From Faecalicoccus acidiformans (GTDB lineage Bacteria > Bacillota_I > Bacilli_A > Erysipelotrichales > Erysipelotrichaceae): a DNA stretch of 64,000 bases. The position numbers and the translations under genes are program-made. Under the pieces are notes generated by a model. That model worked only from the letters and a program-made list of their open reading frames with translations, did not search any database and was not told where the DNA came from. Shown piece by piece: positions 5,563 through 20,033 of this stretch (its first letter is position 1; every line of letters begins with the position of its first letter). The stretch spans positions 1 through 64,000 of the forward strand of contig NZ_JACHHD010000001.1 in the NCBI RefSeq assembly GCF_014202635.1, given 5' to 3'.

Positions 5563-5787
5563 TGATTATTACGGAGTGAGAAGTCCACTCAATACGGCAA
5601 AATAAGTCCATGTATTACGGTGACGAAGTCCACTTAATCCGTTAGACAAGTCCATCAGAAATTAAATTTTTTATCATGATCATTTATAAGTGGCGTATCC
5701 TGGTTTTATTCTATCCTCTTGTTCTATAAGATATGTATGCGATGCTTATCTCATTTTAATATCTTGTGGAATCGGAGGTGTTTTTTT

Positions 5788-7332
5788 ATGCGAGATGTTA
5801 AAAGGGTTTTGGAAATGAGATCTCAAAACCATAGTCAGCGAGATATTGCGCGCGCCACAAAAGTATCAAGAGATACAGTTAGAAAAATATTCAATGCCGC
5901 TGACTCTAAAAAAATCTGTTGGTCATCTATTCAAGATCTTAGTGAATACGATGTCCAAAAATTATTGTTCGAAGAAGAGGTGAAAATCAATCTGTCAATC
6001 AAGCAGCCGGATTTCGACTATGTTCATAAGGAACTGTTGAAACCCGGCACGACGATCAAACTGTTGCGGGAAGAATATGCAGATGCTTGTCGGTCCATCA
6101 ATGTCCCTTTCTATCAGTACAGTTACTTTTGTGAAAGATATCGTGATCACGTGAAAAAGCACAACATGACCATCCATATCAATCACAAGCCAGGCGATAA
6201 GATGATGGTGGATTGGAATGGAACATGTATGTACATTTATGATCGGTACACCGGTGAAAGAATCACTGCTTATCTATTTGAAGCCACCCTTCCATTCAGT
6301 ATGTGCAGCTTTGTCCGTGCCTGTCCGAGCATGAAGATCGGCGACTGGATCGATTGCCATATCCACGCTTTCCGGTATTTTGAAGGTGTTACCCGATTAC
6401 TTGTCCCCGACAATCTGAAAACCGGGGTTATCTCCAACAGAAAATATGAAGATCCTGTTCTCAACAAGTCCTATCAGGAAATGGCAGATCACTATGATAC
6501 GACAATACTTCCTACCAGAGTACGTAGGCCGAAAGATAAAGCAGCGGTTGAGGGTGCGGTCGGAGATTGTACGATAGCTATCGTTGGAAAACTTAGAAAT
6601 CGAAAGTTTTTTTCATTCGAAGAACTGAATGAAGCGATACTCAAAGAATTGGATACGTTTAATTCAAAACCTTTTCAAAAGAAGGAAGGCTCTAGAAAAT
6701 CGGTCTACATGGATGAAGAATTTCCATTTATGAAACCTTTACCGAAATACCCTTTTGAATTGAGTGAATGGAAGCGTGCCAAAGTCCAGCTTAATTATCA
6801 TATATCGGTTGAAAAAATGAACTATTCCGTTCCCTATGAATATGTCGGTCATTATGTGGATGTGAAACTCACAAAACGTTCGGTGACCGTCTACTATAAG
6901 ATGAACCAGGTATGTTCCCATGATCGTCTTTATGGACGAATCAATCAATATTCAACCAATGAGAGCCATATGCCGGAAAAACATCAAAGATTCCTCTGGA
7001 ACAAGGACCGTTTTATACGATGGGCCGCTTCAATCGGTGAAAGTACAATGACAGTCGTCCAGAAATTATTCAACCGATATAAAGTGGAGGAACAGGCCTA
7101 TAAGGGGTGTATGTCCCTTCTGAAATTATCGGATAAATATGGAAAAACTAGACTGGAAGATGCGTGTCAATTGGCGTTGGAGCACATCAGCCAGCCTAGC
7201 TATAGAAATATTAGAATGATACTGCAGTCAAATCAAGACAGGAAGAAGAAAACCCAAACTTCTCAAAAAGAGACCGTCGAGTATGCCTTTGTGAGAGGGA
7301 AAGACTATTATGGAGGAAAACGGAATGGATAG
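5788..7332 (+). CDS. istA: IS21 transposase IstA
   Basis: Transposase of the IS21 element, which cuts and joins DNA with the help of IstB. An N-terminal helix-turn-helix (SQRDIARATKVSRDTVRKI, about residues 15-33) is followed by an integrase-type DDE core: Asp in MMVDWNG, Asp in LVPDNLKTG, Glu in KAAVEGAV. The C-terminal domain is typical. The start is set at ATG 5788, seven bases after a GGAGG site; longer in-frame starts lack one. The 514-residue length is normal for IstA. Its stop overlaps the istB start (ATGGATAG). The gene itself looks intact. Confidence 0.93.
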   Translation: MRDVKRVLEMRSQNHSQRDIARATKVSRDTVRKIFNAADSKKICWSSIQDLSEYDVQKLLFEEEVKINLSIKQPDFDYVHKELLKPGTTIKLLREEYADACRSINVPFYQYSYFCERYRDHVKKHNMTIHINHKPGDKMMVDWNGTCMYIYDRYTGERITAYLFEATLPFSMCSFVRACPSMKIGDWIDCHIHAFRYFEGVTRLLVPDNLKTGVISNRKYEDPVLNKSYQEMADHYDTTILPTRVRRPKDKAAVEGAVGDCTIAIVGKLRNRKFFSFEELNEAILKELDTFNSKPFQKKEGSRKSVYMDEEFPFMKPLPKYPFELSEWKRAKVQLNYHISVEKMNYSVPYEYVGHYVDVKLTKRSVTVYYKMNQVCSHDRLYGRINQYSTNESHMPEKHQRFLWNKDRFIRWAASIGESTMTVVQKLFNRYKVEEQAYKGCMSLLKLSDKYGKTRLEDACQLALEHISQPSYRNIRMILQSNQDRKKKTQTSQKETVEYAFVRGKDYYGGKRNG

Positions 7333-8074
7333 AAAAGAATTGATCATGAAACTCAAACAAATGAAGTTACCGGTCATAGCGGAACGATATGAAATGCAGT
7401 CATCCGATCCTGATTACAGCTAGCTATCGTTCGATGAAAGATTTGGCGAAATGATAGATATGGAATATGACAGTCGAATCAATCATACGATAGAGAAAAA
7501 TATCAGAAACGCTAAATTCTATGATTCTACAGCGAACTTAGAATCTATTGACTATAATCCTGAAAGACAATTGAACCGTTCCCAGATGGAAGAACTGGCA
7601 ACCAATAGATATATCGACAACGGATTAAATATAATATTCGTAGGTGCATCTGGATGCGGTAAGACCTGGTTATCCAACGCTCTGGGAGTACATGCATGTC
7701 GGAACAGAAAAACGGTATTGTATATCCGTTTACCAGAACTTTTCTCAAAATTTGAAGAAATGAGGATCCAGGGGAAATATAACGAGTATCTGAACAAACT
7801 CGGAAAGTATGATCTGGTTATACTGGATGAATTTTTATTGAAACCAACGAACGAAACAGAACGAAGTGACTTATTAGAGTTGATGGAAAAACGGTGTAAC
7901 AAAAAATCAACTATTTTCTGCAGCCAGTATTCATTTGATGGATGGCATCAATCATTGGATGGTGGTCCAATCGCAGATGCGATACTGGATCGCATCGTCA
8001 ATTCCTCCTATATGATCACACTTCATGGAAAGTCATTAAGAGAAACATATTCAAAATTGAATAGATCCAAATAG
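7325..8074 (+). pseudogene. istB: IS21 helper ATPase IstB, interrupted by a nonsense codon
   Basis: AAA+ ATPase that loads and regulates IstA at the target. The frame starts at 7325, overlapping istA by 8 bp. It reads MDRKELIMKLKQMKLPVIAE, meets a TAG at 7421-7423 (codon 33), then continues in the same frame as LSFDERFGEMIDMEYDSR to the normal end. Walker A is GASGCGKTW and Walker B is DLVILDEF. An internal ATG at 7451 could give a 207-residue product without the N-terminal helix, which normally contacts IstA. The element may therefore no longer move by itself. Confidence 0.82.
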
Positions 8075-8209: not shown

Positions 8210-8479
8210 TCATCTTAGAATTCTGGCTTTCAAACACCAGGCATGATCAGTATTATCCCATAATGTATAGTTTCCATCAAAACTTTCATTTTTAAATAGA
8301 TCGCATACCGATACAGCTTCGCTTTTATAATCATAAACATATAGCCATATTGCTAATTCAGTAATCAGCCCTGTATCTTTCGCAGATTTCATACTGCATT
8401 TTTTTAAGATTTTTTTACAGTTGCTTTGAACACCTTTTTTATTTACAGTATCCATAATATTTTGTATAGTTTCGTTCAT
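8210..8479 (-). pseudogene. Small protein of unknown function, 3-prime end cut by IS21
   Basis: Starts at ATG 8479 (minus strand) behind a strong GAAGGAGG ribosome site, so it was a real gene. It encodes a small helical, cytoplasmic-looking protein with no motif that I recognise. Its stop codon TGA (8210-8212) is supplied by the end of the IS21 inverted repeat, so the native C-terminus is missing. The 89-residue product is a truncated fusion. Confidence 0.6.
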
Positions 8480-8729: not shown

Positions 8730-9488
8730 TCATTCTGAGAAGCGTTCCATAAAGTTGATATAATCATGTCTGAGTTTACGAAACTGGTCTTGCTGCTTTA
8801 ATTGTATATAATGCTCAATCTGCTGATTTAATTGTTCTTGCAGGAAGTGTGCTGTTACTTTCTGCTTTTTTTGTTCTTGAAATTGAATCAGTTTTTTAAA
8901 TAAGTAGAGTACGGATAATAAAAAGAGCACAGAGTAAAGAACGATTAAGTACAGATTGATTTCATAAACGATGCATGTACATAAAAGAAAACTTAGGATC
9001 TGTAGGGCCATCAATATGCTTTCTAAAATGATGGTCTGTGGATCTGAGGCTTCCTTTGGCCCAAAAAGAACAATAGCCAGAGAGTAAAAAATCAATAGGC
9101 AAATATATTGGACCACATAAAACCATAAAGTATATTGATGAAAAAAAGTGACTTGTTGTATTTCGGTATCGGATAGTAACAACATGGCCAACATGATGAT
9201 TTCACAAAAAAACATGATGAATTCCCATATGATGGTAGCCCATAAACAACGCATTTTTGATTCCTCACGAAATAAGATACGTAACATGATGTAGACCATG
9301 ATCATCCCTGTCGGAATCGTAATATAGCTGTTGTTGATGAGTTGAGATACAGGTCCCATGATAAGAACAAAGATCAACATCATGAGAATAAAGTTTCTTA
9401 TCTTATGTTCATTATGAAAAAAGAAAGTAAAAAAGTAAGCAAACGATGTAACTTGTATGCTGTAGATAAGTATTCCGAGTCCTAACAT
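8730..9488 (-). CDS. Membrane sensor/His-box subunit of a split histidine kinase (third copy)
   Basis: Six or so hydrophobic helices (about residues 1-200) as in AgrC-type sensors, then a helical linker and the phospho-acceptor box KLRHDYINF. The protein ends six residues later, so it has no ATP-binding domain. It resembles the two other sensors in this operon over the whole length (for example NNSYIT.P near residue 50 and EE.K/IRC near 75). The Shine-Dalgarno GGGAG lies inside the end of the preceding gene. It would sense a signal and be phosphorylated in trans by the separate GHKL subunit at 10259-11089; that is inference. Confidence 0.75.
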   Translation of the reverse strand: MLGLGILIYSIQVTSFAYFFTFFFHNEHKIRNFILMMLIFVLIMGPVSQLINNSYITIPTGMIMVYIMLRILFREESKMRCLWATIIWEFIMFFCEIIMLAMLLLSDTEIQQVTFFHQYTLWFYVVQYICLLIFYSLAIVLFGPKEASDPQTIILESILMALQILSFLLCTCIVYEINLYLIVLYSVLFLLSVLYLFKKLIQFQEQKKQKVTAHFLQEQLNQQIEHYIQLKQQDQFRKLRHDYINFMERFSE

Positions 9489-9491
9489 TCT

Positions 9492-10256
9492 TTATCTCCC
9501 ATTGTTTCTTTGTTCTATGAAGTTTATATAATCGTGGCGAAGCTTTCGAAATTGTTCTTCATTTTTTAGTTGGATATATTTTTGAGCTTGTTTATGAAGA
9601 CTGTCCTGAAGATACTGCAACGTGATTTCTTGTTTTTTTCTGTTCTGGTATTCTATATTTTTCTTAAATAGAAAAATCGCAGTGATTATAAACAAGCAAG
9701 AATAGATCAGTAAAGTCGAAATGCTCATCGTATAATAGAAAGATGTGGTGATGATACAAGTGAGAATTGCCATAGCCAATAAAATGGATTCCCAAGGCAT
9801 ATAGGCATCTTCTATTGTTCTGTTCGATTTAAAACGGTAAATGATGAATGTAAAGGAAACCATCATCAAGGTAAAATGAAGAATATAAAAACCTATCGCA
9901 TATTGATATGTGGAAATTGCCGGTGTTGGATTGATTCCTACTAATAATAAAAAGATCAGAGATATCATTTCGCAAAGAATCATACATCCTTCATAGAAAA
10001 ACACCGCTAAGATGCAGCGTTTTATGCTTTCTTCTTTAAATAACATTCGCAGCAATATAAAGGTCAAAACCATCGTAGTGGGCATCGTGATATAACTGTT
10101 ATTGATAAAAATTGCGATTGGTTCAAAGATCAAATTGAATGCCAATACGATCAAAATGCCATTTTTTAATCTGTTCTTTGCTCCTAAAAAGCCAGTAAAG
10201 AAATACGCAAATGCCAAGCTTTGAATTAGGAAGATTAAAAGACCTAGTAAAGACAT
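9492..10256 (-). CDS. Membrane sensor/His-box subunit of a split histidine kinase (second copy)
   Basis: Paralogue of the neighbouring sensor proteins. It has an AgrC-like multi-helix membrane part, then QFRKLRHDYINF with the acceptor His, and ends eight residues later without an ATPase domain. Only two bases separate it from the GHKL subunit gene upstream and three from the next sensor downstream, so all are one operon. The tail residues after the His box are encoded by the bases that form the ribosome site of the next gene, which helps explain the exact stop position. Signal unknown. Confidence 0.75.
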   Translation of the reverse strand: MSLLGLLIFLIQSLAFAYFFTGFLGAKNRLKNGILIVLAFNLIFEPIAIFINNSYITMPTTMVLTFILLRMLFKEESIKRCILAVFFYEGCMILCEMISLIFLLLVGINPTPAISTYQYAIGFYILHFTLMMVSFTFIIYRFKSNRTIEDAYMPWESILLAMAILTCIITTSFYYTMSISTLLIYSCLFIITAIFLFKKNIEYQNRKKQEITLQYLQDSLHKQAQKYIQLKNEEQFRKLRHDYINFIEQRNNGR

Positions 10257-10258
10257 AT

Positions 10259-11089
10259 CTATTCATTCTCCAGACGTAAAGTCGCCGTACAAGTAATCGC
10301 GTGTTCTTTTTCATTGATCTCAACAGTAAAACTGCCATGGTGTTTTTTACATTGTTGTTCAATGATCCCTAGACCTAAGCCATGTTCGCGGCGGTCTTTT
10401 TTTGTGCTTTTCTTAGGTAAGTCCGTCATTTCAGGAGATATTGGATTTTTTACTTGAATGATTAAGTAATTGGCTTGTGTGTGTATGGAAACATCGACAT
10501 ATGGTTTGGATATGTTGTGAGCAGTACATGCTTCCATCGCATTGTCAATCAAATTGTTTAAAACAGACAGAATCGCAAAATCCTCTAGAACGAGATCTTC
10601 TTTGACACTGGCTTTTACCAGATAGCGAATGTGATTTTTCTTCATTAAAAAGGATTTATGATATAAAATCGCATCTACGATCTTGTTGGGACAATAAGAA
10701 ATAAACAAATTGTCCATCTCCTCCTTAAATTGCGGATCAATCGTATCCGAAGAAGAATTCTTTAAGATTTCCAATTGTTTTGATAATTTTTCGATATCCT
10801 GATCTGCTTGCATCATAGCCAATAGATGTTCATCTTGGATCTTCTTTTGCTGGTAGAGCGTCTCTCGTTTAATCTCTTCTTCCGTTTGTTTTTTTAAATC
10901 CTGAAAGATCTTGATCAGCAGAAAAAAAGAAAAGCACTCTAAAGCAACAAGCATCAAGGTGATCATCGTTTTATAGGGCGTATCAGAATGAAAGCGTAAA
11001 AGAATCGTAATAGTAAAAATAATAAGGTTTACAAAAATAAAATAGACATTTAATGATCTTTGATGAAATAGTTTGATAATATAACTCAT
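10259..11089 (-). CDS. GHKL-type ATPase (catalytic) subunit of a split histidine kinase
   Basis: Two membrane helices (about residues 15-33 and 41-62), a long helical segment, then a GHKL ATP-binding domain. The N-box is VLNNLIDNAMEA, VKNPI is the G1 region, and REHGLGLGIIEQQCKKH is the G2 lid region. Where AgrC-like kinases carry an R-H-D acceptor motif, this protein reads MMQADQDIEKL, so the His is absent. It could phosphorylate the His boxes of the three neighbouring sensor proteins. It starts inside the end of the first sensor gene (ATGA overlap), so translation is coupled. Confidence 0.82.
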   Translation of the reverse strand: MSYIIKLFHQRSLNVYFIFVNLIIFTITILLRFHSDTPYKTMITLMLVALECFSFFLLIKIFQDLKKQTEEEIKRETLYQQKKIQDEHLLAMMQADQDIEKLSKQLEILKNSSSDTIDPQFKEEMDNLFISYCPNKIVDAILYHKSFLMKKNHIRYLVKASVKEDLVLEDFAILSVLNNLIDNAMEACTAHNISKPYVDVSIHTQANYLIIQVKNPISPEMTDLPKKSTKKDRREHGLGLGIIEQQCKKHHGSFTVEINEKEHAITCTATLRLENE

Positions 11090-11856
11090 AGCGAAGACTC
11101 CTTAGATTGTATAAAGTTTAGATAATCATGACGCAGTTTTGAATAGGTTTCTTTGTTCCAGGCTTTTGAAGAAAGCGCCATATCTGTATAAGAACTTTCC
11201 AGGGCTTGGATTGTTTTCTCCAGCTTTTCCTTTTTTTGTTGCTGGACCAAATAGGCAAATACCCCGAAGTTGAAGCCAAAAAAAAGAAGCAAGATACCCA
11301 GGCTGTAGAAAGTAAATAAAGTATCCGATTCTACAAAAATTGCCGACATCCAACAAAATATTTGTAAGACGAGGGCTAGACAAGATACGATAAACACGAT
11401 TTTATTTTTGAGTACATCCTTCTCATGAAAACAATAGAGAAGAGCTTTGTAGACGATAACTAGCAGCACACACTGCAATATTGAAAAAAATACAGGATAA
11501 GACTGTTGGTTTAAGAAAAAATCCGTGCCGTTTTGTGTCGAGAAAGAGAATAAAAACAGAATAAACAGAAATTCCATCAACAGGACTCCCAACTGGTAGA
11601 GCAAGACAGCGCCTAGTATTTTTGTTTTCTTTTCTTCTTTATAGACCAAACACAACATAGCAAAAACCAAAGCCATTAAAAGAACCACTTTAAAGGCATA
11701 ATGCGAAAATAAAGAGATCGCAATAGGATAGATAATGAGTAAATAAAAGAACCAAACGATCCAAAAAGCTTTTTTAGGATGCGTAGAAGTTAAATACTTT
11801 GAAAAGAACCACGCCCATGCAAGACTTTGGAATATATAGAAAAAATAATTGAACAT
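11086..11856 (-). CDS. Membrane sensor/His-box subunit of a split histidine kinase (first copy)
   Basis: First sensor after the response regulator gene (5 bp gap). It has multiple membrane helices (about residues 1-210), a helical linker, then YSKLRHDYLNF with the acceptor His and only eight more residues. The codons of the tail KESSL carry the AAGGAG ribosome site for the ATPase subunit, whose ATG overlaps this stop. It resembles the N-terminal half of an AgrC-like kinase. Together with the ATPase gene it would equal one full-length kinase split into two chains, but two more sensor copies follow. Confidence 0.78.
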   Translation of the reverse strand: MFNYFFYIFQSLAWAWFFSKYLTSTHPKKAFWIVWFFYLLIIYPIAISLFSHYAFKVVLLMALVFAMLCLVYKEEKKTKILGAVLLYQLGVLLMEFLFILFLFSFSTQNGTDFFLNQQSYPVFFSILQCVLLVIVYKALLYCFHEKDVLKNKIVFIVSCLALVLQIFCWMSAIFVESDTLFTFYSLGILLLFFGFNFGVFAYLVQQQKKEKLEKTIQALESSYTDMALSSKAWNKETYSKLRHDYLNFIQSKESSL

Positions 11857-11861
11857 AAAAC

Positions 11862-12569
11862 TTAGTAAAACTGATGAACCAGATAGTCTTGAAAAGCCTT
11901 CTGAATCTTTTTGGAGTATGTCCGGCTAATTGGAATCATGAATCCGGTATCGGTAATAAAATCGGTTCGGTTCAATTCTTTTACATGGTTAAAATTGATC
12001 AAAAAACTGCGATGGCACTGATGAAATTGAGAATTGATCTCAAGCCCTAGCTCATCGAAGTTTTCATTGACACGAATGGTTTCTTTGGACAAATAAATCA
12101 AGCTATAGCGCTTGATTCTTTCCACTGCGATAATGTCTTCTAAATGAATCAGCATTTGTCTGGTTCCTGAGTGAACACAAATCTGTTTATGCATGGACAC
12201 AACAATTGAGAAAGCCTTGTTCAAAGCTTTCTCAATGCGCATTTCTAATTCTGGTTTATAAATAAAATAACAGTGTTTTGTTTCATAAATATCCGTAACT
12301 TTTTCTAAATAGGCGCTGATAAAGATGACAACGGAATGATGAAATGATGTATGGAGTTTATTTGCCATCTCTATTCCGTCTTCCTGGTCCAACACGATAT
12401 CCATTAAAAAAATGGTAGGAATCGAAAGATCCAAGTCAGCTTCAAAGAGTTCTTTGGCCGATTCAAAAGAATAATACTGTATGTTTGTGTGAAGATTGAC
12501 ATTTTTAACGATTTTAATAATACGTTCCTTTTGTTTAGGATCATCTTCACAAAGAATGATCTGTAGCAT
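11862..12569 (-). CDS. LytTR-family response regulator (AgrA-like)
   Basis: The receiver domain (about residues 1-120) has acidic residues CEDD, the phospho-acceptor Asp in FLMDIVL, and Lys in FIYKP. A LytTR DNA-binding domain follows (about 135-235; EDIIAVERIKRYSLIYL, FHQCHRSFLINFNHV). It starts at ATG 12569 behind AAAGGAT. It is the first gene of the minus-strand operon encoding the split kinase. The likely target is the divergent promoter at 12647-12711, where LytTR-type direct repeats occur. No AgrB/AgrD-type peptide genes are seen nearby. Confidence 0.9.
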   Translation of the reverse strand: MLQIILCEDDPKQKERIIKIVKNVNLHTNIQYYSFESAKELFEADLDLSIPTIFLMDIVLDQEDGIEMANKLHTSFHHSVVIFISAYLEKVTDIYETKHCYFIYKPELEMRIEKALNKAFSIVVSMHKQICVHSGTRQMLIHLEDIIAVERIKRYSLIYLSKETIRVNENFDELGLEINSQFHQCHRSFLINFNHVKELNRTDFITDTGFMIPISRTYSKKIQKAFQDYLVHQFY

Positions 12570-12646: not shown

Positions 12647-12711
12647 TTTTGAGACAGTTCTTTTGCGTTTGGGGACAGCTAGCCCTATTCTTTTTTTGTT
12701 CTATGTATAAT
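12647..12711 (+). promoter_or_regulatory. LytTR-type direct repeats and promoter for the lipoprotein operon
   Basis: TTTTGAGACAG (12647-12657) and GTTTGGGGACAG (12667-12678) end 21 bp apart, the spacing of AgrA/ComE-type sites. A TATAAT box lies at 12706-12711 with no good -35, as is common for activator-dependent promoters. The site faces the lipoprotein genes and sits upstream of the divergent regulator gene. Confidence 0.6.
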
Positions 12712-12749: not shown

Positions 12750-13490
12750 ATGAAGAAAACGATGATTCTTTTTTTGTCGGCTTTTTTGATGGCTGGCTGC
12801 GCTGCAGATTCTTCACAGACACTGGATAAAAAGGATGAAGACACGCAAATTGTGCAGACTGAATTAGAAAAGACACCAGAAGTTATTGTTCAAGATTCGA
12901 TAGAAAAACTAAAAGAAGCGGAAAGCTTTGATATGGACTTTGTTGAGGAAGATACACCCATGAATGAATTCTATAAGTATTCGAAAACTACGATTTCTGG
13001 TACATGGACCGATGTTCAAAACGAAGTGTTTGAGGGAAATTATGGTGATGTAAAAGTAGATAATGATGATCCGGATACGAAAAGAAATGAAATGGATATG
13101 GAAGGTCCAATCACAAAAAAGGCGGGAGAGGATGCTATTCTTCCAGCTGAGTACAATGACGGATATGAATTTTCAATTGGGTATATTGAAAAGTTTCCTA
13201 AAGATGTACCCAATCCCAATGAAGAGTATGTTGAGTATACTTCCCAGCAAGAAGAAACGGATAATGGGGTCCGGTATGTGTTCCATACGATAATGACGAT
13301 TGATCAAGGCAATGGTGCCGTTTATGACGAGACTAGAGACTATGAGTACGAATTAGACAATGAAGGAAATATCGTTTATTTCAAATCTACTTGGATTAGT
13401 CCTCTTTTCACAAATTCTGGTATCTTGACAGATCAAATTCGGACAGTCACAGAAGAATTCACATACAAAAATATTATTTATGCAGAATAG
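12750..13490 (+). CDS. Lipoprotein of unknown function
   Basis: The signal peptide ends in a lipobox (LMAGC, Cys about residue 16), so the protein would be acylated and tethered to the outer face of the membrane. The mature part is acidic, mostly beta-like in pattern, and matches no family I recognise. It is the first gene of a four-gene plus-strand run controlled by the LytTR-type site at 12647-12711. The next two genes also encode lipoproteins of similar organisation, which suggests three parts of one surface process or duplicated signal-binding proteins. Confidence 0.75.
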   Translation: MKKTMILFLSAFLMAGCAADSSQTLDKKDEDTQIVQTELEKTPEVIVQDSIEKLKEAESFDMDFVEEDTPMNEFYKYSKTTISGTWTDVQNEVFEGNYGDVKVDNDDPDTKRNEMDMEGPITKKAGEDAILPAEYNDGYEFSIGYIEKFPKDVPNPNEEYVEYTSQQEETDNGVRYVFHTIMTIDQGNGAVYDETRDYEYELDNEGNIVYFKSTWISPLFTNSGILTDQIRTVTEEFTYKNIIYAE

Positions 13491-13502
13491 GAGATTTAGA
13501 TT

Positions 13503-14522
13503 ATGAAGAATAAAATAATTGGTTTATTAATGGTTTTAGTTTTAGCAGGTTGTGCTACAAGCTCTAATACAGCTGTAGGAATTTCATCAGGAACATCTAT
13601 AGAAGATATTCAAACAAAATTTGAAGAAAGCACTTATTCTGCGCTTAGTGAATTAATTACAAATACCGTAGAAACCTATGAATATCAAGTTTGTGTAAAT
13701 ACTGAGTTATCGGGAACTTATATCTTGCCTTCGGCAGAATATAATAGCACTGGCGGTATTGGAGAGGTTGATCTTACGCCTAAAAACTGGGATGGAATGC
13801 AAGATACAAAAGATTGTTGGCTTGAAGATGGAACGGCATATTCGTATTCTGAAGATAGCTCTAGTTTGTATATGTCCGTTGATGATGGTTCTCTTTCTAA
13901 AGGATATCAAATGAATGGTCAAAAAGATTATAATGATCCAAATAAGATTACAGTTAGTTCTTTTTATAATACATATGAAGAGTATTTAGAGAATTCCGAG
14001 AATGATCCGGTCACAGATCCAGACGAGATGGAACAAAATGCTAAGAACACTGTAATAGGAAACGTTTCTTCAGAAGTGAATACTTATTTATATGTTAATG
14101 GAAATTATGAAGATCTTATTGATTTCAAAGTTACGGTTCAAGAAACTGAAAAAGGCCAAGATGCGATTGTATTAGAACCTAAAGATATGGATGAATTTAA
14201 CAAACTCTATATGGAAGATGATACTTTTGGAAGCCCGTTAGATGTTTATGGAGTTGAAGATTTAAAAATTGATTCTTTAACTTATGATCTGTATCAGATT
14301 ATTCTTGTTTTAGATGACAATAACTGTATAAATCAAGTGATTAAACATAGTAAACAAACTGCCGCTTATCAAGATAAAACAACATCTTCGGATGAAATGA
14401 TTACGAATACTTTTTCTAAAATGAAAAAAGATGAGATTAATACTGATTTAGTTAAGTCATTTTTTACAATGTATGAAAATGGTGAAATTGGAGAAGGCGA
14501 TACATTCCAAATCGATGAATAA
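13503..14522 (+). CDS. Lipoprotein of unknown function
   Basis: N-terminal signal with lipobox VLAGC (Cys about residue 17). The remaining 320 residues are acidic and extracellular in character, with many Asp, Glu, Tyr and Ser and no membrane segment. It starts 12 bp after the preceding lipoprotein gene, and its end overlaps the approach to the next. No catalytic motif is visible. Neighbours suggest a role at the cell surface alongside the large LRR protein at 15477-20033. Confidence 0.75.
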   Translation: MKNKIIGLLMVLVLAGCATSSNTAVGISSGTSIEDIQTKFEESTYSALSELITNTVETYEYQVCVNTELSGTYILPSAEYNSTGGIGEVDLTPKNWDGMQDTKDCWLEDGTAYSYSEDSSSLYMSVDDGSLSKGYQMNGQKDYNDPNKITVSSFYNTYEEYLENSENDPVTDPDEMEQNAKNTVIGNVSSEVNTYLYVNGNYEDLIDFKVTVQETEKGQDAIVLEPKDMDEFNKLYMEDDTFGSPLDVYGVEDLKIDSLTYDLYQIILVLDDNNCINQVIKHSKQTAAYQDKTTSSDEMITNTFSKMKKDEINTDLVKSFFTMYENGEIGEGDTFQIDE

Positions 14523-14535
14523 TAAGGTGTTAGAA

Positions 14536-15453
14536 ATGAAAAAGTTTATTCTATGTTGTTTATTAATCAGTTTAGGATTAAGCGCTTGTTCTTCTAGTGC
14601 ATCAGAAGATACTAGTGCAGGTAATACGAATAAAGAATCGACTGAAAGTATTACAATCGTTGATAAAAAAACCGAAGAAGATGAATTGATTGAAGAAATT
14701 CGGGAATTATCGTATCAAATCATGGATGAAGAGAAGATGACCTTTACGCATACCCAGGCCTTTAGTCGCCATATTTCTATACATTCTTCTACTGGTGGAA
14801 TGTTTGGTGATATGAGTTTAAAAACTGTGAAGGGGACAATTGACCCACAAGAAAAAACAGGACGTTTTGAAATCTATTCTTATCTTGATTTACGTGGGTT
14901 TGACACAGATTCTGGTGATACCGTTGATAAGTTTGATTCTTTAGATGCTTCACAAGGGACATTGGATACGATTTTTGTTTTAAATGGAGATAAGATTACT
15001 GTGGAAAATGGAACCTTTCATTGTGTTGGTTGTTTACCGGCTGAAGAAGATCCTGCAAATCCAGGAGTAGAGGTTTCGGAATTCACGTATGATCAAGCTC
15101 TACATGCATCAAATTTAAATACAGATTATTTTAATTATTCTGGAGTTTTGTCAAACTGGATTTTATATGGAACCTATGTAGAAAATGACAGCGTAAAAGT
15201 AGAGAAAAATGAAAATGAGGAGGGCGTTCAGTACATTGTTACCGCAACAGTAGAGGATGCTCAAGATTCCCCTACTGGAAGCAGCGCCTTCACTACAGGA
15301 GATCATACCTTTACAGAACATGTTACAAATACAATTCAGTTAGATAAAAAGGGACGTGTTATAAGTTGTAAGGTTCAATTTCCATATTCTTGTGATGATA
15401 CCGGAACAAGCATGCCAAACTTAAGTATATTCACAATTGAATATAGTGATTAA
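14536..15453 (+). CDS. Lipoprotein of unknown function
   Basis: Start set at ATG 14536 behind AAGGTG, because this gives a proper signal peptide with lipobox LSAC (Cys about residue 18). A longer in-frame reading from 14473 would bury the signal. The mature part is low in positive charge and has no recognised domain; a stretch with two Cys (FHCVGC) lies mid-protein. Third lipoprotein of the operon, directly upstream of the giant surface protein. Confidence 0.75.
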   Translation: MKKFILCCLLISLGLSACSSSASEDTSAGNTNKESTESITIVDKKTEEDELIEEIRELSYQIMDEEKMTFTHTQAFSRHISIHSSTGGMFGDMSLKTVKGTIDPQEKTGRFEIYSYLDLRGFDTDSGDTVDKFDSLDASQGTLDTIFVLNGDKITVENGTFHCVGCLPAEEDPANPGVEVSEFTYDQALHASNLNTDYFNYSGVLSNWILYGTYVENDSVKVEKNENEEGVQYIVTATVEDAQDSPTGSSAFTTGDHTFTEHVTNTIQLDKKGRVISCKVQFPYSCDDTGTSMPNLSIFTIEYSD

Positions 15454-15476
15454 TCTCCAAAAAATAGAGGTTCAAT

Positions 15477-18400
15477 ATGAAAAAAATTTTTGCATGTGCA
15501 TTGGTATTGATTCTTGCGCTCGCTCAAATCAATCCTGTGTTTTCTCTACAAATAGATTCAACACAGAGTGGCGAAACAAGTACAAATGTAGAAGATAATC
15601 CCAATCAAAATAAGGAGATAAACGAAGATTCATTGCAAAAAGAATCAACTGATCTCATCCAGAAAGACATAGAGTCTGAAGCAGATGCAGATGAACAAGA
15701 AAAAACGATTACAGAATATAGCCAGGATGATTTTGTGATAGAAGATGGTGTGTTAACGGCTTATAACGGTAATGATTCTCATGTTGTGATTCCTGAAGGA
15801 GTTACAAAAATCGATCGTGAAGTTTTTAAAAATAATGAAACTTTACAATCAGTCATTTTCCCAAATAGTTTGAAGGAAATTGGATACGAGGCATTTTCAA
15901 ATAGTGGTCTTCAAGGGAATCTGATTTTACCTAAGAATTTAGAAATAATTGATGGATCATTTAGAAATATTTCTTTAGAGTCAGTTGTTATTCCATCTTC
16001 TATACAAACGGCCTCAGGTGCCTTTTCAAATTCAACGATTGATAAAGTAATTATTGAATCCGGACTTATAGAAATACCAGCAGGTATGTTTATTTTTTCG
16101 AAAGTTATAGAAGTAGAACTACCTGAAACCATTACTAAAATAAATAGGGATGCTTTTTATTGTTGCGATACTTTAAAAGTGATTAATTTACCTTCAACTT
16201 TAAAAGAAATTGATAATCAAGCCTTTTTATCTTGTACTTCATTGACACAAGTAACTTTGCCCGAGGGATTGACTCATCTGGGAAGAGAAGCATTTGGTGA
16301 TTGTACAAGTATAAGAACAATAAATATTCCATCTACTTTAGTTCAAACAGGAGCTGATCCAGATTCAGATCTTTATTTTCAAGGCCCTTTCACAAACTGT
16401 AATTTTGAAAAAATAGTTTTCGGAGAAGGAATCAAAGAAATACCATCGACTCTCTTTAATTTAACGGGTATTAGAGAAATTACAATTCCTGATACTGTCA
16501 CAAAAATAGGTAAATCGGCTTTTAAACGCTGTTTTAACTTAGAATATATTTATATTCCTGAAAGTGTAACTACAATTGAAGATAATGTTTTTGAGCACAG
16601 TGATAATGTTACTATCTACTGTAAAGAGAATTCTGCTGCACATAAATATGCGGTGGAAAACAATATTCTTTATTCTTTTGAAGTTCATGAACATGAATAT
16701 GGAGATTGGGTTACTGTAAAAGAAGCTACTTGTATAAAAGACGGTTTGAAAAAACGTACTTGTTCTTGTGGAGTATTTGAAGAACAGGTGATTGATGCTT
16801 TAGGACATGACTTCTCTGAAGAATGGACTATTGATAAGGAACCAACTTGTACAGAAGAAGGTTGGCGTTCTCATCATTGTACTCGTTGTGATGAAACAAA
16901 GGATGGAGAAAAAATAGATAAGTTGGACCATTCCTATGGAGAATGGGTCATTGAAAAAGAGGCAACTTATTATAATGAAGGAAAACGATATCATATATGT
17001 GAACATTGTCAAAATAAAGAAGAAGAGATCATACCCATACTCAAACCGGACTTTGAGGCACATCCAGACTATTCGTTTGCTGAATTTGAAGTAGTCGATG
17101 CACAGAACTTGAATACAATTGAAGGAGCACTTATCAAGTTATCGAATGGGAAAGATACATTTCAGACTATGACCAACGATGAAGGAAAAGCGAAAGTTTT
17201 CGTTCCTCATGGTTCCTATGATATTGTCGTTTCCAAAGAAGGGTATATGGATCGCAGTTTTATATATACTTTAGAAACTGGAGAAGTGTCCGTACCTCAG
17301 ATTGGTATCAGTACAGGATCTGTCGTAACTGGGGAATTGACTGTTACCGAAATGACACGAGATGAGATTCTTGAGGCGGGAATCGATGTCAACGACCCGG
17401 ATAATGAACATGTGTTTAAATACGAAGTAACTCTGAAATTTAGTGACGGATTAGAAATCTATACGATCCCTTCGGTTATCTTTAAGAACAATAAGGGAGA
17501 GGGTATTAAATCCTATTTTGGGGATGAATCCAATACTGGAAATGTGTTTGTGATCGATGCTCCAGAAAAAATAACGATTACAAAAGTTTCTGAATATTTG
17601 TATATTGTAGTTCAGGGCCAAACCAAATGGCTGAAAGAAATGTTCCATGTACAGCTTGTCGTAGTTAATACATCTTTGACGGACAAATTAGTAGATTGTA
17701 CGGCCGAATTGCAGCTTCCAAGCGGACTTTCATTGGCAGATCTTTCAACTGGAGAACAATCCAATCAACAAATTATTGAATCGGTTGATCGCGGACAATC
17801 TGAATCATTAGACTGGTATATTCGCGGTGATCAAACTGGTGATTATGGAATTAGCGCTACTCTAAAAGGAGAATTTTCAAGTTTTCATGATCCCTTTGAA
17901 TATACATTCAAAACTCAAGATCCTTTGCATGTCTATGCGGGAACCGATATGCAACTGACGGTACATTGTTCGGATGCAGCTTATTATGGCGAACCATATA
18001 CAATGATCTTTGAATTGGAAAATGTTTCAGATCATACGATTTATGATGTTCGGCATCAGATCAAAAATGTCTCTCAATATCAGGTAAAAAAATACACCTG
18101 GGTTGAAGATGGAAAAGTGGTTGATGAAGAAGAGGCTTGGAATACTTTAGATTCTCAAGATCTCGGATTGGATGGAATTGTTTTAAAAGATGAGTTTAAA
18201 CCAGGTGAAAAATTAGCCGTTCTAGTGAAAACAGATGTTCTATGGAAATCACCTCTCCATCGATTTAAAGAATCCGCTTCCACTTTACAGACAATACTTA
18301 AATTAGGCGGATTGAGCGGAAATGCGATGAGCACTCTTTTCTCAGCTATTTCATTTGTTGATGTTCGGTATTATTTAACCGATACTTTGGTCTCCTATGC

Positions 18401-20033
18401 AGACGAAAACACAACACAGATTCCGATAACATTTGATATCGAACATCGTGCTGGTGTTTCCATTTATGATAAGTTGTTTGAAGAAGCGTTAGGGAAATAT
18501 TTTGGAAAACTTGAATCAGGTGCTGTTCATGTAATGACACAGGGAGGATTGGATAATTATTTCTCAATGATCAAGAAGATGCAGAAAAAAATTAAAGTCC
18601 AATCTTCTGATTCAAATACCGAATCCTTTGCGTGGGTGGAAGATGCCGACGGCAGTTCCAATGTCATAAGCATACAAGCAGATGGAGCAACATTGGATGA
18701 TCAAGGAAGACTAGTGCTCAAAGGCGATTCTGAGATTTCAGTGAATGCATTGAATACGGGACAAGCTTATTTATTGATTCAGGACAGCCAGGGAAATATC
18801 ACTAAACATCAATTCAATGTACATGAATCTTTCCCAGGGCAGGAAACAATTACTTCGGAAATTGAAGATCTTTTCTATCTTCCGTTTTTAGTGGTTCCAT
18901 ATGGCCAGACACTGTCTGAGGAAATGAGTACCTTCTTAAATGAATTAGGCTGTCAATTGATGTACGACAATGCACCTTTAAAGATTGGGGATTCTATTCC
19001 TACAGGTGCGGTGATTTTAGATGAAAATGGGAATGAAGTTTTATCGACTATGTTGCCCGGCGATTCCAACAGCGATACGCAAGTAAACTTGTTTGATGGT
19101 TATCATATTCTGAATATGAAGAATCAAAAGTCTTTAACGCAGATGCAGCTGGCTGCATCAAATTATAATGGGGATGGTGTAGCGGATGAAAAAGATACGA
19201 CATATCTCTTTAACTTTTTAACCCAACAAGATTTAACAACCTATAGTTTACCTGGTATTGAACAATCGGCGTATCAAGTGGATTTACAAAACTTGTTGCA
19301 AGGATTGGAGAATGTAAAGGGAATTCAACTGGACATTGATCATGCATCAAATTCGGGAATGGAAAATGCAGCAGTAAAAGTAAACGCAAAAGCCGATTTC
19401 AATCAGACTGCATACAATCAATCTCAAGATCGAATCCGTGCTATTGTGGCTAACTATGATTCATTGTTGCCTATTTCTAAAGCAAGTTTAGAAGTCCTGA
19501 TGAATTCTACACAGGATAAGGTGTCTATTCCTGCTCGAATATATATACAAACAGATACGGAAGAGATTACTCGGGATATCACCCTTACTTTAAATAAATT
19601 CACAGGTGATTCTGAAAATGATTTCCAACAAACTGTAGACCGATTTGAAGATACATTGAAAGAACTGGAGAATACGCTTGAAAGTCTGGAAGGCTATGAT
19701 TCAATCAAATCAGATTTCCTGACGATCATTGATCAAATCAAAGAAAAACTTCAAAAGGCACAAAGTGTGGAAGAAATCCAAGAGCTTCAGAAACAATTGG
19801 AGAATGCCTATGCTCAATTCCAGAAAAACCTAAAAGAACAACAAACCCAAGAATCTCAAAATTCTTCAGAATCTACTTCTGACAAAAAGAAAGACGAATC
19901 TGAGAGTCAAGATTCGAAAGAGAAGAAAAACTCGGAAAATACAGGCGTAAAAATTGGAGACACATTACTGTTTTTCGTACTTTCTACAGTTTCGTTACTG
20001 ATAATTATTTTGATACGAAAGAGAACGACTTAA
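15477..20033 (+). CDS. Large BspA-like LRR surface protein with dockerin-type repeats
   Basis: The 1518-residue exported protein has these parts: signal peptide (1-24), acidic linker, and a leucine-rich repeat region of the LRR_5/BspA type (about 85-395; units such as LKEIDNQAFLSCTSLTQVTL). Three H-x-Y-x2-W...C-x-C units follow (about 403-520); the third has lost one Cys (EATYYNEG). Then come a carboxypeptidase-regulatory-like beta domain (535-615), a dockerin-like pair of Ca-binding loops (DSNSDTQVNLFD and NYNGDGVADEKD, about 1195-1260), a long coiled coil (1385-1480), a membrane helix and the tail RKRTT. There is no LPxTG; ENTGVKIGD sits where a sorting motif would be. Likely an adhesin or scaffold. 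Confidence 0.85.
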   Translation: MKKIFACALVLILALAQINPVFSLQIDSTQSGETSTNVEDNPNQNKEINEDSLQKESTDLIQKDIESEADADEQEKTITEYSQDDFVIEDGVLTAYNGNDSHVVIPEGVTKIDREVFKNNETLQSVIFPNSLKEIGYEAFSNSGLQGNLILPKNLEIIDGSFRNISLESVVIPSSIQTASGAFSNSTIDKVIIESGLIEIPAGMFIFSKVIEVELPETITKINRDAFYCCDTLKVINLPSTLKEIDNQAFLSCTSLTQVTLPEGLTHLGREAFGDCTSIRTINIPSTLVQTGADPDSDLYFQGPFTNCNFEKIVFGEGIKEIPSTLFNLTGIREITIPDTVTKIGKSAFKRCFNLEYIYIPESVTTIEDNVFEHSDNVTIYCKENSAAHKYAVENNILYSFEVHEHEYGDWVTVKEATCIKDGLKKRTCSCGVFEEQVIDALGHDFSEEWTIDKEPTCTEEGWRSHHCTRCDETKDGEKIDKLDHSYGEWVIEKEATYYNEGKRYHICEHCQNKEEEIIPILKPDFEAHPDYSFAEFEVVDAQNLNTIEGALIKLSNGKDTFQTMTNDEGKAKVFVPHGSYDIVVSKEGYMDRSFIYTLETGEVSVPQIGISTGSVVTGELTVTEMTRDEILEAGIDVNDPDNEHVFKYEVTLKFSDGLEIYTIPSVIFKNNKGEGIKSYFGDESNTGNVFVIDAPEKITITKVSEYLYIVVQGQTKWLKEMFHVQLVVVNTSLTDKLVDCTAELQLPSGLSLADLSTGEQSNQQIIESVDRGQSESLDWYIRGDQTGDYGISATLKGEFSSFHDPFEYTFKTQDPLHVYAGTDMQLTVHCSDAAYYGEPYTMIFELENVSDHTIYDVRHQIKNVSQYQVKKYTWVEDGKVVDEEEAWNTLDSQDLGLDGIVLKDEFKPGEKLAVLVKTDVLWKSPLHRFKESASTLQTILKLGGLSGNAMSTLFSAISFVDVRYYLTDTLVSYADENTTQIPITFDIEHRAGVSIYDKLFEEALGKYFGKLESGAVHVMTQGGLDNYFSMIKKMQKKIKVQSSDSNTESFAWVEDADGSSNVISIQADGATLDDQGRLVLKGDSEISVNALNTGQAYLLIQDSQGNITKHQFNVHESFPGQETITSEIEDLFYLPFLVVPYGQTLSEEMSTFLNELGCQLMYDNAPLKIGDSIPTGAVILDENGNEVLSTMLPGDSNSDTQVNLFDGYHILNMKNQKSLTQMQLAASNYNGDGVADEKDTTYLFNFLTQQDLTTYSLPGIEQSAYQVDLQNLLQGLENVKGIQLDIDHASNSGMENAAVKVNAKADFNQTAYNQSQDRIRAIVANYDSLLPISKASLEVLMNSTQDKVSIPARIYIQTDTEEITRDITLTLNKFTGDSENDFQQTVDRFEDTLKELENTLESLEGYDSIKSDFLTIIDQIKEKLQKAQSVEEIQELQKQLENAYAQFQKNLKEQQTQESQNSSESTSDKKKDESESQDSKEKKNSENTGVKIGDTLLFFVLSTVSLLIIILIRKRTT

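Follow-up and report, generated by a model that had tools for sequence, protein, structure and literature searches.

Histidine kinases are usually single-chain proteins, the best-studied exceptions being of the CheA type. The operon described here raises the question of whether a membrane-bound kinase can be divided as well, with acceptor histidines on several sensors and the ATPase on a protein of its own. It lies within a window of 64,000 nucleotides (the whole stretch of DNA analysed) and is transcribed from the minus strand in the order LytTR response regulator (RR), sensor A, GHKL ATPase, sensor B, sensor C (Table 1). We consider it highly probable that it encodes an AgrC-type (HPK10) kinase that is naturally split, the sensor His being phosphorylated in trans by the GHKL protein and one RR receiving the output of several sensors.

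Table 1. Features of the operon and the adjoining candidate operator, by position in the window
Feature	Position	Strand	Evidence
RR, REC and LytTR domains, 235 aa, acceptor Asp57	11862..12569	-	Pfam Response_reg 6e-8, LytTR 4e-15
Sensor A, multi-TM, C-terminus RHDYLNF+8, no ATPase domain	11086..11856	-	Translation, AgrC alignment
GHKL catalytic subunit, 276 aa, Gln97 at the former His site	10259..11089	-	HATPase_c_5 8e-21
GHKL catalytic subunit, two N-terminal TM helices, long helix, AgrC-like ATP-binding domain	10259..11089	-	AF2, fold search
Sensor B, multi-TM, long cytoplasmic helix, His241 on terminal helix	9492..10256	-	Translation, AF2
Sensor C, paralogue of B (41% overall), C-terminus RHDYINF+6	8730..9488	-	Translation
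Candidate LytTR-type operator, direct repeat TTTGAGACA-N12-TTTGGGGACA, 21-bp period	12648..12677	+	Genome motif scan

Sensors and catalytic subunit

The sequence-only reading held that the three sensors end 6-8 residues past an RHDY(I/L)NF box, and this is what the translations give: 8 residues in sensor A (KLRHDYLNF-IQSKESSL), 8 in sensor B (KLRHDYINF-IEQRNNGR) and 6 in sensor C (KLRHDYINF-MERFSE). Sensor A aligns with the N-terminal half of AgrC (residues 26-235; NF046015, E=1.9e-7), and weak matches to this model were found in 4 of 26 sensors of the group defined below as clade I, the best at 1.9e-7. By a simple hydropathy count the sensors have 4-9 hydrophobic segments; a sensor fold search against the PDB gave no confident match. 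In the AF2 model of sensor B (pLDDT 86, pTM 0.78) a membrane-helix bundle and a helix at 179-230 are followed by a break and a terminal helix (233-253), near the middle of which His241 is placed. In 25 of 28 within-operon pairs, similarity is higher over the last ~40 residues, around the box, than over the sensor body; the tails of the Floccifex porci sensors, for example, are 95% identical and their bodies 43%. Such a pattern is expected if the tails meet one common partner while the receptor parts diverge towards different signals. It had also been claimed that the tail codons supply the ribosome site of the next gene. This is true of sensors A and B, in which AAGGAG (8 nt before the GHKL ATG) and GGGAGA (6 nt before the ATG of sensor C) lie inside the tail codons, but not of sensor C, the last gene, whose tail codons contain no ribosome site. 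In relatives, sensors stop early even as the last gene of the operon, and in one genome, OPF54, the single sensor lies about 10 kb from the GHKL gene and still ends RHDLLNYMESRKR; the stop is therefore not a by-product of gene packing. No further sensors of this kind were found in the source genome, and no AgrB-like gene was noticed among the window ORFs adjoining the operon.

The GHKL subunit had been described as an ATPase that lacks an acceptor His, and the alignments bear this out. The region concerned reads LLAMMQADQDIEKLSKQL, with no His, and in a profile alignment (HMMER) the phospho-His of AgrC (PDB 6e52) falls opposite Gln97 and the next Asp opposite Asp98. A fold search returned the AgrC kinase module (6e95/6e52) as the top PDB matches, and the subunit aligns with the whole of this module, DHp alpha1 included. 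The AF2 model (pLDDT 80) predicts two TM helices, the second of which runs into a helix ending at residue 112, then a short helix (119-128) ahead of the ATP-binding domain; the prediction for alpha2, a short helix, is poor (pLDDT 52-80). Among split GHKLs, HATPase_c_5 is kept in 15 of 15, and SPOB_a, the Pfam acceptor domain for kinases of this class, is listed for 0 of 15. HD is absent from the aligned site in 20 of the 21 split GHKLs that reach it. The sole exception is OPF54 (an Erysipelotrichaceae bacterium whose genome is rated 10% contaminated), which has AEHDMEHL where the window GHKL has ADQDIEKL; its retained His is a point against the split-kinase reading, and a candidate at the aligned site for the cryptic acceptor of which the sequence-only reading had warned is confined to this one of the 21 proteins. 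One explanation for such residues is that the GHKL protein phosphorylates itself at a non-canonical position and the sensors merely regulate it, which the EHD of OPF54 and a His a few residues off the aligned site in some split GHKLs would fit. This is very unlikely, as the other proteins have Q, K, N, D, E or a further residue at the aligned position and no alternative His is conserved in the split GHKLs, the only invariant one being H236 in the ATP-binding domain (G2 box).

Distribution, gene order and cut points

A total of 294 Erysipelotrichales genomes were surveyed with a GHKL profile and a sensor profile. GHKL scores were bimodal: short GHKLs (270-320 codons, mostly >180 bits) were present in about 18 genomes, and the remaining matches were full-length kinases, usually of 400-470 aa and scoring <140 bits. 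Truncated sensors matched by the profile and the short GHKLs of clade I occur in the identical 16 of the 294 genomes and in no others. The 34 sensor-profile matches all lie in 16 genomes; 33 are in short open frames (147-303 codons), and the remaining one is in a 540-codon frame of G274 with an internal stop, where the sensor is 274 aa long and itself ends in RHDLIH. The 294 genomes yielded no fused homologue of the sensors, so that full-length fused kinases with local decay, the outcome that the sequence-only reading had set against itself, have no counterpart in this set. In a phylum sample of 392 genomes, matches outside the Erysipelotrichales were nearly all full-length (about 420-470 aa) and all scored <155 bits, as against >180 bits for nearly all split GHKLs. 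A search of genome contigs, with four close sequences as the query, gave an uncultured Erysipelotrichaceae MAG, a Faecalicoccus MAG and F. pleomorphus DSM 20574 as the nearest matches, which points to a Faecalicoccus-like Erysipelotrichaceae member as the source of the window.

At least 11 genera have the split. Each short GHKL is accompanied by between one and four or more sensors, and usually by a LytTR RR. A search for the gene order in relatives, as proposed with the sequence-only reading, shows that sensors and short GHKL recur together while their order varies: RR-sensor-GHKL-sensor-sensor in the window and G171; RR-GHKL-sensors in G003, G004, G006, G075 and G170; RR-sensor-GHKL in G043, G059, G079 and G098; sensors-RR-sensor-GHKL in G069; and RR-GHKL-4 sensors in G044. 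The operon genes are under purifying selection, with dN/dS about 0.05-0.08 against the close relative G002 (RR 0.06, sensor A 0.076 and, over its first 161 codons, GHKL 0.05), figures that are rough on account of the high dS (1.0-1.8). Pseudogene decay or an assembly error, with fused kinases broken by frameshifts, might be suspected from the IS21 element that adjoins the operon and from the broken GHKL frame in the Faecalitalea UBA4312 assembly. Given the conservation of the same split across these genera, with varied order and one to four or more intact sensors, the low dN/dS and the lack of a fused relative, this reading was rejected as having next to no probability, and on the evidence of genera, gene order and dN/dS the earlier claim that the sensors are not random truncations stands. 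Barely more credible is that sensor A and GHKL are joined into one kinase by programmed frameshifting at the ATGA in which the GHKL ATG overlaps the sensor A stop. This 4-nt overlap has similar counterparts in G171 and G059, but the GHKL gene has its own ribosome site and encodes two TM helices, GHKL stands ahead of the sensors in the five RR-GHKL-sensors genomes, and the OPF54 sensor is about 10 kb away; it was on the gene order in relatives that the fusion was rejected.

Three of these loci deserve separate mention. G171 may carry five sensors per GHKL, as its operon (L077) leaves contig C155 and sensor pieces open contig C27. In Faecalitalea UBA4312 (L078 4909-6479) the RR and GHKL frames are broken and four sensors remain, which could reflect decay or sequencing error. 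OPF54 has its GHKL at L117 6932-7762 and its sole family sensor at L121; together with the His at the former acceptor site, this could be an ancestral remnant or a reversion.

In a tree of 61 ATP-binding domain sequences, 16 short GHKLs form clade I (UFBoot 92), and a second group, clade II, has five members (G044a, G044b, G050, G059b and G098b). The conserved stop position proposed earlier proved to be so in part: stops are similar within an operon, but across clade I the sensors end 9-39 residues after the His (median 15.5). Clade II sensors end 32-46 residues after it (median 34), taking in the loop and the start of alpha2, and SPOB_a is matched by 4 of 8 of them, as against 2 of 26 clade I sensors. 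Tail length thus differs with the clade of the partner, and a cut point that tracks the partner is expected if the sensor tail and the GHKL helix complete one domain. Within the box, His and Asp are kept in 41 of 41 sensors and Asn in 40 (21 loci); the search string itself demanded HD and N/H, yet all CA-less sensors adjoining a split GHKL matched it. A second pair in G043 (L034 13089-14686), in which a 247-aa GHKL overlaps a divergent CA-less sensor of 285 aa with the box RHDQRNH, is possibly a third, independent split.

A proposed mechanism and its known counterparts

The anatomy of the split, comprising the division of domains, motif conservation, co-occurrence, operon linkage and selection, is strongly supported. 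We propose that each sensor corresponds to the receptor half of a kinase like AgrC, ending just past the phospho-accepting His helix, and that the GHKL protein would be the kinase half, with its own two-TM anchor, a DHp-like helix in which His is replaced by Gln and an intact ATP-binding domain. AgrC-type dimers are able to phosphorylate in trans. The two halves would form a complex at the membrane via parallel helices that allows trans-phosphorylation of the sensor His by the GHKL subunit. From this His the phosphate would move to Asp57 of the common LytTR RR, which probably acts on the candidate operator and so regulates its own operon, the divergent lipoprotein genes or both. Since the shortest sensors lack DHp alpha2, the docking surface for the RR would have to come partly from the GHKL subunit. 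Interchangeable sensors would in this way use one catalytic subunit and one regulator, and one RR may integrate three signals. About evenly balanced, in our estimation, is the further idea of a modular many-to-one design, in which the sensors would be phospho-accepting cartridges that can be swapped, either competing for one His-dead two-TM kinase or co-assembling with it, the regulator would compute the combination of several extracellular signals, and new sensors would arise by duplication of the receptor half alone.

Another possibility is that the His-box tails are not acceptors. They could be docking or allosteric elements or, given the HDxxN motif, RR phosphatases, with the GHKL protein as an ATP-dependent conformational partner and the RR phosphorylated elsewhere or working unphosphorylated. 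The incomplete DHp bundle of the sensors would fit this, as would the finding that CheA3, which bears the His in a known split kinase, acts as a phosphatase when free (PMC3591291). We regard it as unlikely, since without phosphotransfer it is difficult to account for the invariant His and Asp of the 41 sensors, together with the invariant RR Asp, in operons with a single short GHKL.

For the split-kinase reading the nearest known system is AgrC, the top relative in the PDB both by sequence and by fold, which likewise has an RHDY-type His box, a GHKL domain and a LytTR partner, and whose multi-TM receptor may have its counterpart in the multi-TM sensors. AgrC carries all its domains on a single chain, whereas here the chain is divided within DHp, so that His and ATPase are on separate polypeptides, alpha1 is represented in both halves, the His is confined to the sensor, and each kinase is served by several sensors. 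CheA-receptor arrays also have many sensors per kinase. In these arrays the common kinase bears its own His, whereas here every sensor brings its own. CheA3/CheA4 of Rhodobacter sphaeroides resemble the present system in having the acceptor His and the ATP-binding domain on different proteins, with His on one and the dimerization and kinase domains on the other, the two forming a kinase only together (PMC3591291). They differ from it in being a one-to-one cytoplasmic chemotaxis CheA with the His on an Hpt (P1) domain and no membrane sensor or sensor array, and no CheA domains (P1-P5 architecture) appeared among the Pfam matches of the split sensors, GHKLs and RR. In Synechocystis, Hik36/Hik43 (PilL-N/PilL-C) is a split CheA with His and catalytic domains on separate proteins and one RR (PMC7656254); being CheA-type, with distant loci and one His protein, it is unlike the multi-sensor operon. 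A search of open-access papers for split or CA-less AgrC-type kinases returned CheA-type cases only, and no earlier description of a membrane-receptor, many-to-one split kinase was found in that literature.

The operon would amount to a natural trans-complementation experiment, in which a His-dead, kinase-competent chain and a His-bearing, kinase-less chain have been kept across genera of gut bacteria. It offers a direct test of the minimal DHp residues needed for phosphotransfer and bears on how one regulator combines several inputs. It bears also on why splitting is selected; a published model of CheA3/A4 reportedly predicts ultrasensitivity from the split. The sensors would be annotated in databases as unknown membrane proteins, and such split systems are therefore overlooked.

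The regulator, its candidate operator and neighbouring genes

The acceptor Asp of the RR is kept in 19 of 19 RRs of split operons. The candidate operator separates the RR from the divergent lipoprotein genes, has the period typical of LytTR operators and is the sole match in the source genome with <3 mismatches; as the motif was first spotted by eye, the shuffle test is partly circular and we treat the repeat as a lead. The same arrangement is absent at three of nine tested loci (G004, G075 and G171) and present in five relatives (G002, G003, G274, G170 and OPF54), close to the genes for the RR or the kinase. The genes divergent from the RR (12750-20033, plus strand) encode three lipoprotein-like proteins with no Pfam matches and a 1518-aa BspA-type LRR surface protein. 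Secreted or surface proteins are frequent among the neighbours in relatives too, with fn3, Big_2 and CHAP proteins encoded nearby.

Just downstream of the operon are IS21-family istA/istB genes (5719-8074, plus strand), and beside them an 89-aa ORF (8210-8479, minus strand) with a partial DUF6707 match that may be a remnant. Further along the window (42338-63167, plus strand) is a defence-like cluster in which a UvrD/GajB-like helicase and DpdE-, DpdF- and DpdH-like proteins adjoin DndB, DndC and DndD. It may be an unusual hybrid, combining DNA phosphorothioation genes with helicases that are normally assigned to the 7-deazaguanine (Dpd) system.
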